From NCBI RefSeq assembly GCF_000737325.1, contig NZ_CP011125.1, forward strand, positions 5,270,001-5,334,000: 64,000 nucleotides of DNA. The letters run 5' to 3'. The position numbers were made by a program, and so were the translations under genes. The notes below the pieces were generated by a model. That model searched no databases and was not told the origin of the DNA. It saw only the letters and a program-made list of their open reading frames with translations. This document shows positions 24,151 through 33,113 of this stretch, piece after piece. The stretch's first letter is position 1, and every line of letters starts with the position of its first letter. The stretch comes from Sandaracinus amylolyticus. GTDB lineage: Bacteria; Myxococcota_A; Polyangia; Polyangiales; Sandaracinaceae.

Positions 24151-24324
24151 CGTTCGCGAAAAGCAGCTCGCGGCCCCGAGGAGCGGAGCACGCTCGCCTC
24201 GGCGCTGCAGCAGGTGGGTGCGGCGCGACGCCACGCTCGATCACGGAGCGCGTCGCCACGCCACGGAGCGAACCCTTCTTTCACGTGCTCTGGCCGAGGT
24301 CAACCCGGCGTTCGCGGAGGCGCG
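24151..24324. other. Divergent promoter region
   Basis: The 174 bp between the L,D-transpeptidase and the membrane-anchored unknown must hold both promoters. I cannot point to convincing -35/-10 boxes. The forward gene's ribosome binding site GGAGG is at 24316-24320. Confidence 0.4.
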
Positions 24325-25728
24325 ATGAACGATCCGCTCGCGCGGCGCAGCGCTGCCGTCGGATGGATCGCGTCGGTCGCGCTGCACGCGGGCGTGCTCT
24401 TCGTGGCGAGCGTCGCGCTCGCGCCGCCGGACACCGGCTTCGAGCTCCAGGCGCCGATCGAGGTCGAGCTCGGCATGGTCGAAGCGACCGAGGTCGAGGT
24501 CGCGGCGCCTGCCGCCCCGCCCGAGCCTCCCTCGGAGCCCGCGGCGTCGACGAGCGAGAGCACGACCGGCGAAGGCGAGAGCGCCGCGCGCGACGCGGGA
24601 ACGAGCGCCGACGCAGGCGCGCGCCGGCGTCGTCGCGATGCGGGCGTCGACGGCGCGACCACGAGCCCGGGGCTCGGCGAAGGCGCGCCGGTCGCGTTCC
24701 TCCCCGCGGGCGCGCAGCTCGCGCTTCGCATCGACATGGATCGCGTGCGCGGCTCGCCGGTCGGCGAGGACATCGCGTCGTTGCTCCGCGTGGTGCCCGA
24801 CTGGCGCGCGCTGCTCGGCGAGTCCGGCGTCGACCCGGTGCGCGACCTCTCGCGCGTCCTCATCGCGACGCCGAACCTGCAGCGCTCGAGCATCGTCGTC
24901 GCGGGGCGTCTCAGCGAGGGCGCGCCCGATCCGCGCGCGCTCGCCGAGCGGTTCGCGCAGGGCCGAGGCCTCGCGATCGAGTGGCGCGACGAGGCGGGCG
25001 TGCCCTCGACGCGATGGCCGAGCCCCGACGGCATCGAGCGCGACGTCGCGCTGGTGGGCGAGCGCCACTTCGTGATCGCGCGACCCGACGATCTCCCGCG
25101 CGTGCTCGCGATCGCCGCGGCACGACGCGCGCGGCGCGCCACGGTCGAGCCCGCCGACGCGCTGCTCGCGATGGACGACGGCGAGGGCCTCTCCATCGAG
25201 GTCGAGAACGTCGCGGTGTTCGTGCGACGCAGCCTCTGCCCCGTGCCCCTGCGCTTGCGCGTCGGCGTGACCGAAGGCGACGACGGCGCGCGGCTCCGCG
25301 GCGAGGCGCGCTTCGCCACGCACGACGACGCCGAGGGCGCCAGCGAGTGCCTCGCCGAGCGCGCCCGCGCAGCTGCGTCGAACGTGATCGTCTCGCTGTA
25401 CGGCCTCGACGGCCCCCTCGATCGCCTCGACTTCCGCGTCGAGGACGACGTGCTGCACGTCGAGACGCAGCTGCGCTTCACGGAGATCCGCACGATCGCG
25501 GGCCTGGTGCGCGAGCTCTTCGAGCGCCCCGCGGGCGCGCCGCCCCGACCGCGCCGCCGCCCTCGACCACGCCGCCGCCGAACCCGTTCTGAGCGACGGA
25601 AAGCAAGAAGGGGAGCCCGCGCGATCCGCGGCTCCCCTCATGCCCGACGACCGCAGTGGCGTCGTCGATGTCACTCCGCAGATGGAGCGACGATGTGTTG
25701 CTGCTCGATCAGAGGACGAGGTCCTTGA
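24325..25728 (+). CDS. Membrane-anchored protein of unknown function, probable frameshift near the 3' end
   Basis: Start ATG 24325 has GGAGG 4 bases upstream. As read, the protein is 467 residues: one N-terminal span (VGWIASVALHAGVLFVASVAL, about 12-32), an acidic Pro/Glu linker, an Arg-rich patch, and a globular periplasmic region with GAQLALRIDMDRVRGSP and repeated strand-helix units. No family is recognised. The last part is suspect. From about 25535 the third codon positions turn AT-rich and the product becomes Arg/Cys-rich, while the neighbouring frame keeps G or C at third positions and ends PPPNPF at a TGA, 25590-25592. A 28-bp hairpin follows at 25610. So the gene most likely ends at 25592 and a one-base indel (sequence error or real) shifts the frame. 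As read it would overlap the HU gene by 20 bp. Confidence 0.7.
   Translation: MNDPLARRSAAVGWIASVALHAGVLFVASVALAPPDTGFELQAPIEVELGMVEATEVEVAAPAAPPEPPSEPAASTSESTTGEGESAARDAGTSADAGARRRRRDAGVDGATTSPGLGEGAPVAFLPAGAQLALRIDMDRVRGSPVGEDIASLLRVVPDWRALLGESGVDPVRDLSRVLIATPNLQRSSIVVAGRLSEGAPDPRALAERFAQGRGLAIEWRDEAGVPSTRWPSPDGIERDVALVGERHFVIARPDDLPRVLAIAAARRARRATVEPADALLAMDDGEGLSIEVENVAVFVRRSLCPVPLRLRVGVTEGDDGARLRGEARFATHDDAEGASECLAERARAAASNVIVSLYGLDGPLDRLDFRVEDDVLHVETQLRFTEIRTIAGLVRELFERPAGAPPRPRRRPRPRRRRTRSERRKARRGARAIRGSPHARRPQWRRRCHSADGATMCCCSIRGRGP
25610..25637 (+). terminator. Stem-loop between convergent genes
   Basis: A perfect 8-bp stem, GGGGAGCC (25610-25617) with GGCTCCCC (25630-25637), loop of 12 bases. 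It lies 17 bp after the presumed true stop at 25592 and before the HU stop on the other strand. There is no T-run, so it is a GC-rich hairpin of uncertain terminator strength. Confidence 0.5.
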
Positions 25729-26032
25729 GGCCCTTCACCGGAAGCGCCTTGAGCTTGCGCGAGGCCGGCACGTCGCGGACGACCGTCTCACCCGTCGCCG
25801 GGTTGCGGAACTTCACGCCCTTGCGCGCCTCGGTCTTGCGGATCTTCAGGCGCACGATGCCCGGGATCTCGAACTGCTCGGGGCCACGCTTGCCGAGCTC
25901 GCGCTTCATCAGGCCACGGAGCGACTCGAACACCTCGCCCACCTGCTTGCGCGACAGGCCGGTCTTCTCCGCGATCTCACCGAGGACCTGAGCCTTCGTC
26001 ATCTTCTTCGCAGCGGTCTCTGCCTTCGCCAT
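25709..26032 (-). CDS. HU-family DNA-binding protein
   Basis: A 107-residue HU/IHF-type nucleoid protein. It begins MAKAETAAKKMTKAQVLGEI at ATG 26032 behind a strong AGGAGG site. The HU fold is seen as two N-terminal helices (LGEIAEKTGLSRKQVGEVFESL), the saddle strands (FEIPGIVRLKIRKTEARKG) and the DNA-minor-groove arm. The arm motif is VKFRNPATGETVV, where IHF and HU usually have RNPxTG; RNPATG is intact. The 15-residue Lys/Ala-rich N-terminal extension and the missing canonical GFG step make it a divergent HU. A second, more typical IHF-type protein is at 39419. Confidence 0.9.
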   Translation of the reverse strand: MAKAETAAKKMTKAQVLGEIAEKTGLSRKQVGEVFESLRGLMKRELGKRGPEQFEIPGIVRLKIRKTEARKGVKFRNPATGETVVRDVPASRKLKALPVKGLKDLVL

Positions 26033-26348
26033 GGTCTCTTCCTCCTGTGGAACCGGTTTCCCGATCGCGGGACGGACCGACCCCTTCCCCGTCGAGGTCG
26101 CACCCACATCACCCCAACTCCCCGCAAACATCAGGGGCGCCGTCTTCGACGGCGATCAAGCCGGGTGCGAGCGTGTGCGCCTCGCGAGGGATCGACCTCC
26201 CCGCGCTTGCGCGGAACCCCCCTTTTTCCTGGGCTTCCGCGCGTCGGCCCCTTCGATGCCACCGATTTTCGAGGCTGACAAGCGCAATTCGCTGCCGAGC
26301 CCCCGAAAATCACCGAATTCGTGATCACAAGAGCGAATTCGCCCCCAT
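26033..26348. other. Intergenic region between ybeY and the HU gene
   Basis: About 316 bp with no gene. It must hold the HU promoter on the minus strand. An 8-bp inverted repeat (GATTTTCG 26264-26271, CGAAAATC 26304-26311) extended by GGCT/AGCC lies close to the ybeY stop and could end that transcript. A perfect 6-bp hairpin CCGCGC-TT-GCGCGG is also present. Local base composition around 26260-26345 is clearly less GC-rich than in the genes. I could not fix a promoter. Confidence 0.5.
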
Positions 26349-26822
26349 TCAGGGCGATCCGGAGCGATCGCGAGACCCCTTCCGGCGCGGCTTCGCCGCC
26401 GCTCGGAGCAGATCGGTGCGCGCCGTCATGCGCCTTTCTTCGGTGCGATCGCGGTGATCGAGCCCGAGGAGATGCAGCACGCCGTGCGCGAGCAGCGTCG
26501 TCACCTCCGCCTCCAGCGAGCGCGCGTGCTCGCGCGCCTGGCGCGCCGCGGTGTCGAGCGAGATCACGACGTCGCCGAGCACGCCGGGCGCGTGCCCGCT
26601 CTGCTCGCCTTCCATCATCGCGAACGCGAGCACGTCGGTCGGCTTGTCCTTGTGGCGGTAGTCGCGGTTGAGCGCGTGGATCGTCGCGTCGTCGCACAGG
26701 AGGATCGAGAGCTCGCGATCACCGAGCCGCATCGCTTGGAGCATGCGCTCGCCGCGCGCGCGCACGTCGCTCGCGCGCATCGCGGGACGCGACAGACCTT
26801 CGACCGAGATCAGCACCGCCAT
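26349..26822 (-). CDS. ybeY: Endoribonuclease YbeY
   Basis: A 157-residue UPF0054 protein, a zinc-dependent single-strand RNase needed for 16S rRNA 3'-end maturation and 70S quality control. The defining zinc motif [11 protein letters not shown] is complete, preceded by [19 protein letters not shown] and [11 protein letters not shown]. The start is ATG 26822, just before the first strand (MAVLISVEG); the longer frame to 26858 adds nothing family-like. The tail after the zinc motif ends in a short basic stretch. It is divergent from the biotin-carboxylase-like gene, 65 bp apart. Confidence 0.94.
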
Positions 26823-26887
26823 CGCGGCGCACCCTACTCCTCTGCCGCGCTCGCGCACGCGACGACGCGCTCGTATGCTGCGCGCGC

Positions 26888-28258
26888 ATGTTCGAGAAGA
26901 TCCTCGTGGCCAACCGAGGCGAGGTCGCAGCGCGCGTCGCGCGCACCTGCCGCCGCATCGGCGCGGACACGGTCGCGGTGCACACGGACGGTGAAGAGGA
27001 AGACGTGCACGCGCAGGCGTGCGACGAAGCGGTGCGCGTCGGCCCGCCTCGCACGAACGGCGCGGTGCCGGTGCGCGACTCGTACGCGAGCGTCGCGGCG
27101 CTGATCACCGCGGCGCGCGCGACCGGGTGCACCGCGCTGCACCCCGGCTACGGCCTGCTCGACGACGATCCGACGCTCGCGCGCGCTTGCGAGGCGGCGG
27201 GCATCGCGTTCATCGGGCCCTCTCCCGAGGAGCTCGTGCTCTACCGCGATCGCTTCTCGATCCGTCACGCCGCGTTCGACGCAGGCCTGCGCATCCTGCC
27301 CGGCAGCGAGCGTCCGATCCGCGAGCCGAGCGAGCTGCGCGCCGACGTCGAGGCGATCGGCTATCCGCTCGTCATCAAGCCCGCGTTCGGCCTCGGCGAG
27401 CCGAACGTGCTGCCCACGCTCGACTCGGCCGACGATCTCGAGCGCGCGATCGCGGGCATCGAGTGGGAAGGCGCGGCCTGCTACGTCGAGCGCCACGTCG
27501 ATCGCCCGCGCCACGTCGAGGTCCAGGTCGTCGGCGACGGCCGGGGCAACTGCGTGGTGATCGGCGATCGCGAGGTCAGCGTGCGCAAGGATCACCGGCG
27601 CGTGCTGGCCGAGTCCCCCGCGCCCGCGATCGACGCGCTGCGCTCGGGCGCGGCGGTGCGCAGCGCGATCGGCGCGGCCGCGATCGATCTCGCGCTCTAT
27701 CTCCGGTTCCGCGGCGTCGGGAGCGCGCACTTCCTGATCGACGCGCGCGGCAGCTTCTATTTCCTCGGCTTCCATCCGCTGCTCCAGCCCGAGCACGCGG
27801 TCATCGAGGCGTGCGCGAACATCGATCTCGTCGAGGTGCAGGTGCGCCTCGCGAACGGCGAGCCGATGCCGCCCGAGGTGCCGCGCGTCGCGCCGACCGG
27901 GCACGCGGTGCAGGCGCGCATCGAGGCCGCCACCGATCCGCGCGACGGCCGGCCGTTCCCCGGTCGCGCCGACGACGTGCGATGGCCGCCCGCGCCGGCC
28001 GGCAAGGTGCGGATCGAGACGGGCATCCAGCCGCGCTCGCGCGTGCAGCACGATCACGATCCCGTCGTCGCCACCGTCACGACCTACGCGCCGACGCGCC
28101 ACGAGGCGGTGCTGGTGCTCGATCGTGTGATCGCCGAGACGCGCATCGCGCCGCTGGTCACGAACCTCCGGCTGCTCCGTCGCGCGCTCAACCACGAGAG
28201 CTTCCGCGCGTGTCAGTACGACGAGGGATTCCTCGATCGCGTGTCGGCGAATCCTTGA
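26888..28258 (+). CDS. Biotin-carboxylase-like protein lacking catalytic residues
   Basis: A 456-residue homologue of the biotin carboxylase subunit of acetyl-CoA carboxylase (E. coli AccC, 449 residues) along its full length: [75 protein letters not shown] and VQARIEA. The active site is broken. The glycine-rich ATP loop is replaced by PAFGLGEPN after Lys164. By alignment to E. coli AccC the metal ligands Glu276 and Glu288 become His281 and Gly294, Asn290 becomes His296 and the catalytic Arg292 becomes Leu298. Glu296 survives as Glu302. It therefore probably does not carboxylate biotin. There is no biotin-carrier or carboxyltransferase gene beside it. Codon use is like its neighbours, so it looks maintained. 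Perhaps a regulatory or binding role. Confidence 0.88.
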
Positions 28259-28295
28259 GCGACTTGCGACGGGGCGTGATACCGTGAACGGACAG

Positions 28296-28979
28296 ATGAA
28301 GCCCGAGCGTCCCGAGCTCCGGATCATCCGAGAGTCGCTCGAAGCCCTGGTCGCGCCGTCGATGGTCTCCAGCGCGATCTTCGAGGCGCTCGAGGCGATC
28401 GGCGGCGACCTCGCCCAAGGCGGGGCTGCGGCGAGCGAGTTCGTGCAGGGCCCGCTGCGCGACGCGCTCGCGCGTCGCATGGGCGCGGACGCGCATCCGG
28501 TGATCGACGACGTGCTCGCGATGATCGGCGCGGTGACGCCGAGCGGCCCGGGCGCGGTGCGTCGCGGCGGCGACGTGACGCGCGAGGTGTTCGTCGACTC
28601 GCGCCCGGTGATCGTGATCGTCGTCTCGGCGGGGCACGCGTTCGCGTCGAAGCTCCAGGCCGCGCTCGGCGCGACGCGCGTGATCCCGATCCCCGCGGCG
28701 AGCCTCGAGCGCATGGACGAGCAGCTGCGCGTCGCCGCGCCGCAGATGGTGCTCGTCGACAGCGCGGACTTCGCGCCGATCGAGCCGGAGCGCCTGGCGC
28801 TCTTCCTCGAGAAGCTCCCCGCGACGACGGTCCGCGCGATCTGGGGCGCGGACCTGCCGTACGGCGGCGCAGTGCTGCGCGCGATGATCACGCGCTCGAT
28901 CCCGGCGACCCCGCTCGACCGGCGCGAGGGGATCGATCCGGTGCTCGATCTGATCCGATCGCGTCAGCTCGTGCGCTGA
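28296..28979 (+). CDS. Conserved-looking protein with receiver-like C-terminal half, unknown function
   Basis: A 227-residue soluble protein. Two starts are close: GTG 28284 and ATG 28296; the ATG is used. The N-terminal half is helical (LRIIRESLEALVAPSMVSSAIFEALEAIGG), followed by a patch of glycines. The C-terminal half has the strand-helix rhythm of a response-regulator receiver (VIVIVVSAGHAFASKLQAALG; QMVLVDSADFAPIEPERLALFLEKLP), but the acidic pocket and the conserved Lys are not evident, so it is at best a degenerate receiver. It follows the biotin-carboxylase-like gene by 37 bp and may be co-transcribed with it. A good terminator-like hairpin follows at once. Confidence 0.65.
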   Translation: MKPERPELRIIRESLEALVAPSMVSSAIFEALEAIGGDLAQGGAAASEFVQGPLRDALARRMGADAHPVIDDVLAMIGAVTPSGPGAVRRGGDVTREVFVDSRPVIVIVVSAGHAFASKLQAALGATRVIPIPAASLERMDEQLRVAAPQMVLVDSADFAPIEPERLALFLEKLPATTVRAIWGADLPYGGAVLRAMITRSIPATPLDRREGIDPVLDLIRSRQLVR

Positions 28980-29200: not shown

Positions 29201-31103
<1,903 letters not shown>

Positions 31104-31168: not shown

Positions 31169-31420
31169 GCGTCGCGGTCTCGAAGCGATCGACTTCGAAA
31201 TCGACCCGCGGGGTCGCTGACACCCAACGATCGATTCGAAAATCGACCTCCGGGGTCGCTGACACCCAACGATCGATTTCGAAATCGACCTCCGGGGTCG
31301 CTGACACCCAACGATCGATTTCGAAATCGATCTCGCGGGTCGGTGACGGTCGACGAGCGATTCGGAGAGCGACCTCCGGGGTCGCTGACACCCCACGATC
31401 GATTCCGGAATCGGTCTCGG
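31169..31420. repeat. Tandem array of six 42-bp units with a central palindrome
   Basis: Units start at 31169, 31211, 31253, 31295, 31337 and 31379, exactly 42 bp apart. The best ones read GGGTCGCTGACACCCAACGA then TCGATTTCGAAATCGA, a perfect 16-bp palindrome, then CCTCCG or TCTCGC. The first and fifth units are diverged but keep the palindrome in degraded form. Because 42 is a multiple of three, frames stay open on both strands and give 14-residue repeats, but no gene signals support translation. The array fills the gap between a lipoprotein and a histidine kinase that point away from and toward it. Confidence 0.85.
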
Positions 31421-31439: not shown

Positions 31440-33113
31440 TCACGCCGGCAGCGTGAAGTGGAACGTCGCGCCCTCGCCCGGACGGCCCTCGGCCCACACG
31501 CGGCCGCCGTGGCGCGTCACGATGCGGCGTACGTTCGCGAGGCCGATGCCCGTGCCCTCGAACTCCTCGGGCGCGTGCAGCCGCTGGAAGACGCCGAAGA
31601 GCTTGTCCACGTAGCGCATGTCGAACCCGACGCCGTCGTCCGCGACCCAGACGTGCACCACCCCGGTGCCGGCCTCGCCCTGCTCGCGCGCCGCGCCGAT
31701 CTCGATGTGCGCGACCTCGCGCGTGCGCGTGTACTTCACCGCGTTCGAGAGGAGGTTCTTCACCACCGAGCGGAGCAGCGTCGGGTCCGCGGTCACCGCC
31801 GGCAGCGCGCCGATGCGCCACTCGATGTTCCGCTCGCCGATCTCGGGCGCGAGATCGCTCCGCACCGCCGCGACGAGCTCCGCGAGATCGAGCTCGCGCA
31901 CGCTCAGCTGCGCGCGACCCATGCGGCTGAACGCGAGCAGCTCGTCGACGAGCCGGCCGCCCTGCTGCGCGGCGTCCGCGATCGTCTCGAGGTACTCGCG
32001 CGAGGTCGCGTCCAGCGCGCTGGCGCCGCGCCGCTTGAGCATGTCTGCGAAGCCGCTGATGTGGCGCAGCGGCGCGCGGAGATCGTGGCTGACCGAGTAG
32101 CTGAAGCTCTCGAGCTCGCGGTTCGCCTCGGCGAGCGCCTCGGTGCGCGCGGCGACGCGCTGCTCGAGGCGCTCGTTCATCTCGCGGATGATCGACTCCG
32201 CCTTCTTCTGCTCGGTGATGTCGTGGCCCTGCACGAAGATGCCCTCGACCTCGCCCGCGCGGTTTCGGATCGGCTGGTAGATGAAGTCGATGTAGCGATC
32301 CTCGCGCGCGCCGCCGAAGTCGAGCTCGACGCGAACGCTGCGACCGATCCACGGCCGACCATCGCGGTAGACGCCGTCGAGCAGCCCGATGAAGCCCTGC
32401 TCGACGACCTCGGGCAGCGCCTCCGCGACCGTGCGGCCGACGACGTCGCGACCGCCGACGAGCGAGCGGTACGCGTCGTTCGCCATGTCGAACACGTGCC
32501 GCTCTCCGCGGAGGAACGCCATGAAGCTCGGCGCCTGATCGAAGAGGTGGAGGAGTCGCCGGCGCTCGTCGTCGAGCAGCTGGTTCTCGTGCTCGACGCG
32601 GCGCGCGCGCGCGAGCACGCCCGCCTCGGCGACGCCCGAGTCGTCGCGGGCCGCGCTCGATCCCGCCGCGCCCTCGGCGCGCGCCGCGACCTCGCGCAGC
32701 CGGTGCAGCTCGGTGACGTCGACCGTGTGCTGCAGGACGTACGCGACCTGTCCGCGCGCGTCCTTCAGCGGCGTGTGGGTCGCGCTCCAGAAGCGCTGCT
32801 CGACGACGGGGCCGCTCGGCGTGAGCGTGGGCACGCGGTACGGCAGGAACGCGAGCACGTCGGTCTCACCGGTGCGCACGGCCTTCTCGAGCGAGCGACG
32901 CAGGCGCTGGCGGCTCGCGTCGTTCGGATCGTCGGGGACGTTCGGGAAGAGATCGAAGACGTACTTGCCGACGAGATCCTCGAGCCGGCTCGCGGTCTCG
33001 CGCAGGTACGCGTCGTTCGCGGCGACGTAACGGAGGTCGCGGTCGAGCACCATGTACGCGTTCGGCGAGAGACGGAACGCCTCCCCGTGGACGAAATCGA
33101 GCTCGGGCCTCAT
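31440..33113 (-). CDS. PAS-PAS sensor histidine kinase
   Basis: A 557-residue soluble hybrid-free kinase, no membrane span. PAS domain one spans about 12-135 (FRLSPNAYMVLDRDLRYVAANDAYL), PAS two about 180-305 (LFDQAPSFMAFLRG...GIFVQGHDITEQKKAE), then a coiled helix and the HisKA box SYSVSHDLRAPLRHISGF with the phospho-acceptor His near 350. The ATPase part has NLLSNAVKYT (N box), VADDGVGFD (G1) and GTGIGLANVRRIV (G2). It is the third gene of a minus-strand run: response regulator, receiver-PAS-kinase, this kinase, spaced 19-20 bp. The ligand or cofactor of the PAS domains is not evident; there is no GAF or bilin-type cysteine. Phosphotransfer to the single-domain regulator is likely. Confidence 0.93.
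   Translation of the reverse strand: MRPELDFVHGEAFRLSPNAYMVLDRDLRYVAANDAYLRETASRLEDLVGKYVFDLFPNVPDDPNDASRQRLRRSLEKAVRTGETDVLAFLPYRVPTLTPSGPVVEQRFWSATHTPLKDARGQVAYVLQHTVDVTELHRLREVAARAEGAAGSSAARDDSGVAEAGVLARARRVEHENQLLDDERRRLLHLFDQAPSFMAFLRGERHVFDMANDAYRSLVGGRDVVGRTVAEALPEVVEQGFIGLLDGVYRDGRPWIGRSVRVELDFGGAREDRYIDFIYQPIRNRAGEVEGIFVQGHDITEQKKAESIIREMNERLEQRVAARTEALAEANRELESFSYSVSHDLRAPLRHISGFADMLKRRGASALDATSREYLETIADAAQQGGRLVDELLAFSRMGRAQLSVRELDLAELVAAVRSDLAPEIGERNIEWRIGALPAVTADPTLLRSVVKNLLSNAVKYTRTREVAHIEIGAAREQGEAGTGVVHVWVADDGVGFDMRYVDKLFGVFQRLHAPEEFEGTGIGLANVRRIVTRHGGRVWAEGRPGEGATFHFTLPA

Follow-up and report, generated by a model that had tools for sequence, protein, structure and literature searches.

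The gene at positions 26888..28258 on the forward strand of the window, by which we mean the whole stretch of 64,000 nucleotides of Sandaracinus amylolyticus that was analyzed (G000:C1:5270001-5334000, within a single contig of 10,327,335 bases), raises the question of why a biotin carboxylase (BC) should be maintained at full length when much of its active site has been replaced. BC is among the most conserved housekeeping enzymes. A preliminary description of the locus had proposed that this open reading frame of 456 aa, which begins with ATG, encodes a BC homologue without catalytic or metal residues, which selection would maintain for a purpose apart from carboxylation. The gene and its product are referred to here as pseudo-biotin carboxylase (pseudo-BC). 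Full-text searches of open-access literature gave no description of a BC pseudoenzyme.

Predicted fold and active site

Three Pfam domains of BC, Biotin_carb_N (6.5e-33), CPSase_L_D2 (5e-33) and Biotin_carb_C (1.7e-16), together span the whole length of pseudo-BC. The AlphaFold (AF2) model, computed from a 26-row alignment, has a mean pLDDT of 90.2 and a pTM of 0.90, and residues 169-173 of the former Gly-rich loop form the only segment with pLDDT below 50. The best Foldseek matches listed for this model are all BCs or BC-containing carboxylases, including E. coli BC, with TM values of ~0.8-0.9, and the match spans ~460 columns. The fold, as modeled, is the complete three-domain fold of BC, and the full-length homology claimed in the preliminary description is borne out.

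Residues were compared with those of E. coli K-12 AccC, whose numbering is given first; the alignment is collinear at 32-33% identity. According to published work on BC, Mg-ADP is coordinated by the residues equivalent to E276, E288, E201 and Q233 and biotin by those equivalent to R338 and D382, and the counterpart of E296 holds and deprotonates bicarbonate (PMC11077971). In pseudo-BC, the Mg-ATP residues Lys116, the Gly loop, Gln233, Glu276 and Glu288 are replaced by R, GLGEPN, R, H and G, and the bicarbonate/carboxyphosphate residues Lys238, Asn290 and Arg292 by R, H and L. All of the following positions are on the forward strand. The codon of Arg122, which takes the place of the ATP-binding Lys116, lies at 27251..27253, and the degenerate Gly-rich ATP loop (residues 165-173, PAFGLGEPN) is encoded at 27380..27406. 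Residues 233-238 (RKDHRR, 27584..27601) include Gln233>Arg and Lys238>Arg, and His281 (27728..27730) replaces the metal ligand Glu276. The segment of residues 294-302 (GFHPLLQPE, 27767..27793) has Glu288>Gly at 294, Asn290>His at 296 and Arg292>Leu at 298. The general base Glu296 is retained as Glu302, and Lys159 as Lys164. Every substitution and retention listed in the preliminary description is exact by alignment, and three changes, K116>R122, Q233>R233 and K238>R238, were absent from its list. An intact Glu/Glu/Asn/Arg set was looked for in the rest of the chain and is absent, the alignment being collinear and the fold match covering the length of the protein.

Pseudo-BC shares with the AccC-type BC (E. 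coli AccC; TIGR00514 / PRK08591) the three-domain fold, the length, a collinear alignment, Glu296, most of the biotin-side residues and the dimer arginines. In contrast, it has neither the metal glutamates nor Asn290, Arg292, Lys238, Gln233, Lys116 and the Gly loop, it is unlinked to accB, and it scores 321.8 bits against the NCBIfam accC model (TIGR00514), below the curated cut-off of 626.5. Since both metal glutamates and the bicarbonate-site Asn, Arg and Lys are gone, we infer from the sequence that pseudo-BC has no BC activity.

The altered active site across the family

The closest 10 genomes, which come from 6 genera and are called Sandaracinaceae-level (f1), all have an orthologue with the same pattern of losses (10/10). 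K116R is found in 9/9 readable copies, and Q233R, K238R and E288G in 10/10 each. E276 is His in 9/10 and Arg in the other, N290 has become H, T or R in 10/10, and R292 is lost in 10/10. On the side of retention, E201, H209, E211 and E296 are each kept in 10/10 and K159 in 9/10, together with Y82 in 8/8 readable copies and R338 and D382 in 7/9 each. Because the substitutions are common to 10/10 relatives (E276H to 9/10), chance or sequencing error is excluded as their source. Read with the published roles in binding Mg-ADP, biotin and bicarbonate (PMC11077971), these counts indicate that the ATP/Mg side has been mostly lost and the biotin side mostly kept. The phrase "without catalytic or metal residues" goes slightly too far where catalysis is concerned, since Glu296 is present in 10/10 copies and Lys159, Arg338, Asp382 and Tyr82 in most or all readable ones. 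Among 114 positions that are near-invariant in intact orthologues, 11/22 of those that we assigned to the active site are lost in all f1 rows compared with 18/92 of the others (Fisher p 0.006).

Arg16, Arg19 and Arg366, which we take to be dimer-interface positions of BC, are invariant in f1. The PDB titles of the R16E, E23R and F363A mutants agree with this reading; the dimer and BCCP interfaces of pseudo-BC were assessed from few residues.

The reading frame of pseudo-BC is intact in 10/10 f1 genomes despite ~50% protein divergence (3 copies are cut by a contig end). Nei-Gojobori dN/dS is 0.095 for the pair G000-G002 and 0.053 for G007-G009, and the pairs that come next have 0.25 and 0.32. 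Canonical AccC gives 0.03-0.33, and the intact orthologues give 0.12-0.29; the values of 0.43 and 0.62 for distant pseudo-BC pairs are near saturation and uninformative. In one same genome pair, dN is 0.019 for pseudo-BC and 0.005 for canonical AccC. Conservation of the ATP lid is 0.40 in f1 versus 0.58 in intact orthologues, whereas that of residues 371-446 is 0.70 versus 0.55, a comparison that is indicative only since the two groups differ in number, spread and age. Several C-terminal positions are newly fixed in the family, A426N, S427H, D428E and E429S among others. With 10/10 copies degenerate at one locus and low dN/dS, the earlier proposal that selection keeps the gene for a role other than carboxylation is upheld. 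Pseudo-BC is almost certainly a pseudoenzyme, with a homologous fold that has lost the required catalytic residues, a state common to its orthologues and under purifying selection.

Locus, descent and the downstream gene

The order ybeY / BC / enolase, with an HU-like gene adjoining, is shared by f1 with f9 and f10, which like f5, f7 and f12 belong to the same order. In the window, three syntenic neighbors lie on the reverse strand: the genes for endoribonuclease YbeY (26349..26858; Pfam PF02130, 2e-35) and for an HU-like DNA-binding protein (25709..26131; Pfam PF00216, 1.7e-14), and, on the other side, that for enolase (29201..30655; named from its ORF translation, synteny cluster C2). An unnamed gene with a 504-aa ORF at 24214-25728 (cluster C1) is syntenic with ybeY, HU and BC in many f1, f9 and f10 genomes. 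In G006, a contig end falls inside the BC gene and the upstream ORF is antisense to ybeY; the copies of G004 and G008 begin at contig ends. An accB gene beside the BC of f9 was considered and rejected, the small upstream ORFs being antisense to ybeY.

In the BC tree, the f1 rows form a single branch (support 100/100) within a clade of mostly intact orthologues from f9, f10, f5, f7 and f12, and this order-wide clade is separate from canonical AccC and the other paralogues. As most orthologues of the related families are still intact, pseudo-BC is an ancient pseudoenzyme that goes back to a stand-alone BC present across the order. Pseudo-BC and this Polyangiales clade (e.g. L083 of Polyangium sp. 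6x1) are orthologues by the tree and share the ybeY locus in f9 and f10. However, the active site of the clade is intact in nearly all members, and no gene of the downstream family described below was found in f9. When 379 genomes from across the phylum were searched with a profile under a strict threshold, members turned up in f1 and f9 only.

The locus copies of f9 are intact in 5 genomes and degenerate in 2, G029 and G039, each in its own way (L015, G029:C336:17793-19142; L026, G039:C151:26814-28178). G039 has K116R, Q233R and K238R as in f1, while the copy of its congener G042 is intact; common descent, transfer and convergence could each account for the likeness of G039 to f1. The tree does not establish that all degenerate copies go back to one origin, as f1, G029 and G039 form a group (80/95) but on long branches, and a grouping of G039 with G042 survives the AU test (p 0.41). 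It is possible that the degenerate state arose by one to three losses.

The Sandaracinus genome has a canonical accB-accC pair (3801332-3801805 and 3799950-3801290), a further stand-alone BC at 6027774 and another BC at 5457241. It also encodes a chain of 675 aa that joins BC to BCCP, and a chain of the size of pyruvate carboxylase. The degenerate pattern was seen in none of the other BCs within the f1 alignment, and neither the ORFs of the window nor the synteny comparison gave an accB, accC or carboxyltransferase gene adjoining pseudo-BC. Given these intact BCs elsewhere, BC activity is not missing from the genome, and more than one BCCP would be available for pseudo-BC to meet. There is no need to suppose that a gained accBC replaced an ancestral accC, as f10, f12, f5 and f7 have both the canonical accBC and an intact BC of the clade. 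Within f9, a clearly stand-alone AccC-type BC apart from the locus copy is seen in the 2 genomes where that copy is degenerate but in none of the 5 where it is intact (n=7, fragmented assemblies). Neither a BCCP that exceeds the curated cut-off nor a canonical accB-accC pair was found in these five (G017, G023, G034, G042 and G046), and the role of AccC may fall to the intact BC of the clade that they have at the ybeY locus.

The next gene on the same strand (28284..28979) has no Pfam match and encodes 231 aa from GTG 28284 or 227 aa from ATG 28296, which leaves a gap to pseudo-BC of 25 or 37 bp, respectively. The "receiver-like" protein that had been placed 37 bp downstream therefore has the right distance if ATG 28296 is the start, but its receiver character is weakly supported. 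The protein appears to have a helical N-terminal part and an alpha/beta C-terminal half. For this half, hhalign against 4 receivers gives a weak match (probability 28.6%) that is collinear over 121 columns. None of 7 family members matches any Pfam family, the receiver family included, at E up to 10, and a PDB profile search gave chance-level matches only. A single-sequence model (pLDDT 40) is too poor to use. Between the two genes, neither a sigma-70-like promoter nor a terminator was seen, a negative that carries little weight in a genome rich in G+C.

The same downstream neighbor adjoins pseudo-BC in 9/9 testable f1 genomes, being co-directional in 8 and inverted in 1. The inverted gene is at positions 1047-1709 of L059 (G004:C407); it is not inverted in G008 of the same genus, and the inversion may be real or an assembly artefact. 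At the threshold used, the family was not found in f9, nor was it present beside the f9 BC orthologues. Paralogues exist within f1, and homologues in genomes of f2, f3, f4, f6, f8 and f11; the paralogues in the Sandaracinus genome, at G000:C1:5174791-5175498 and 3452406-3453086, are part of this myxobacterial family without a Pfam match. The conserved adjacency fits a joint function with pseudo-BC. It should be mentioned that the downstream gene probably arrived once, so that the association counts as a single evolutionary event.

Possible roles of the retained protein

We tentatively favor a role for pseudo-BC as a carboxylase-linked helper or regulator, a reading drawn from the sequence that has somewhat less than an even chance of being correct. 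The descent itself is shown by sequence: the order-wide stand-alone BC at the ybeY-enolase locus was inherited vertically, and its Mg-ATP residues and those that activate bicarbonate were lost in or before the ancestor of Sandaracinaceae. The fold, the dimer-interface arginines, Glu296 and most biotin-side residues were kept, and purifying selection has acted since then. Among the candidate partners put forward in the preliminary description (ATP, biotin, a partner carboxylase or the downstream protein), the residues retained favor biotin/BCCP or another BC over Mg-ATP. Pseudo-BC would then be a BC subunit without catalysis of its own, docking biotinylated BCCP or pairing with a chain of active BC, and could thereby tune the assembly or activity of acyl-CoA carboxylases, with the family-specific conserved C-terminal surface and the downstream protein as a possible regulatory input. 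This C-terminal surface could also serve an unrelated partner.

The last possibility leads to a different proposal, namely that pseudo-BC has been recruited outside carboxylases. It might, for instance, sense a ligand independently of ATP, or be a scaffold, acting with the downstream protein. We regard this recruitment as a real possibility, though it would probably prove wrong. The gene stands alone with no carboxylase neighbor, the downstream gene is kept in f1 and absent from f9, and the C-terminal part has newly fixed positions; K116R and K238R, moreover, preserve positive charge and could hold an anionic ligand. However, such a recruitment gives no obvious reason for the persistence of the biotin-side residues and the general base, and the dimer arginines are retained as well.

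The invariance of E201, H209, E211 and E296, with K159 in nearly all copies, might instead reflect continued catalysis, by an altered mechanism or in a novel reaction of ATP-grasp type, that proceeds via Lys159, Glu201, His209 and Glu296, and the His at position 276 could in principle bind metal. This is improbable, as both ATP-grasp metal ligands are gone, with E288 changed to Gly throughout, and the Gly loop is lost, its remnant being disordered in the model. The idea that histidines form a new metal site was rejected since position 290 is variously H, T or R. Decay of a functionless gene toward loss has very little to recommend it. Pseudo-BC does evolve faster than canonical AccC, and the two f9 genomes have more erratically degenerate copies, but the maintained frame, the dN/dS of 0.05-0.10 in close pairs, the same catalytic substitutions fixed in the family and a C-terminal part more conserved than in active relatives all stand against it.

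A parallel to the favored role as a carboxylase helper is offered by plant BADC, non-biotinylated BCCP relatives that aid assembly of the heteromeric acetyl-CoA carboxylase, or inhibit it in an alternative model (PMC11926652). Like BADC, pseudo-BC would be a non-catalytic relative of a carboxylase component. However, BADC derives from BCCP and not from BC, and the parallel is one of possible working, not of kinship. A more specific and rather unlikely extension is a two-protein device, in which the dead BC, binding biotinylated BCCP or an active BC, acts with a receiver-like signal partner to regulate acyl-CoA carboxylation and malonyl-CoA supply in Sandaracinaceae; if true, it would be the pseudo-BC counterpart of the BADC system. 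A dead BC kept family-wide and for long beside intact paralogues is a natural experiment on the non-catalytic surfaces of BC, and it may provide a handle on myxobacterial control of fatty acid synthesis. The automatic label "acetyl-CoA carboxylase biotin carboxylase subunit" should be read with caution for pseudo-BC genes.

Elsewhere in the window, a tandem array at 31186-31413, with a 42-bp unit in 5.4 copies and 82% matches, sits just past the end of a sensor-kinase-like gene (31440-33113).
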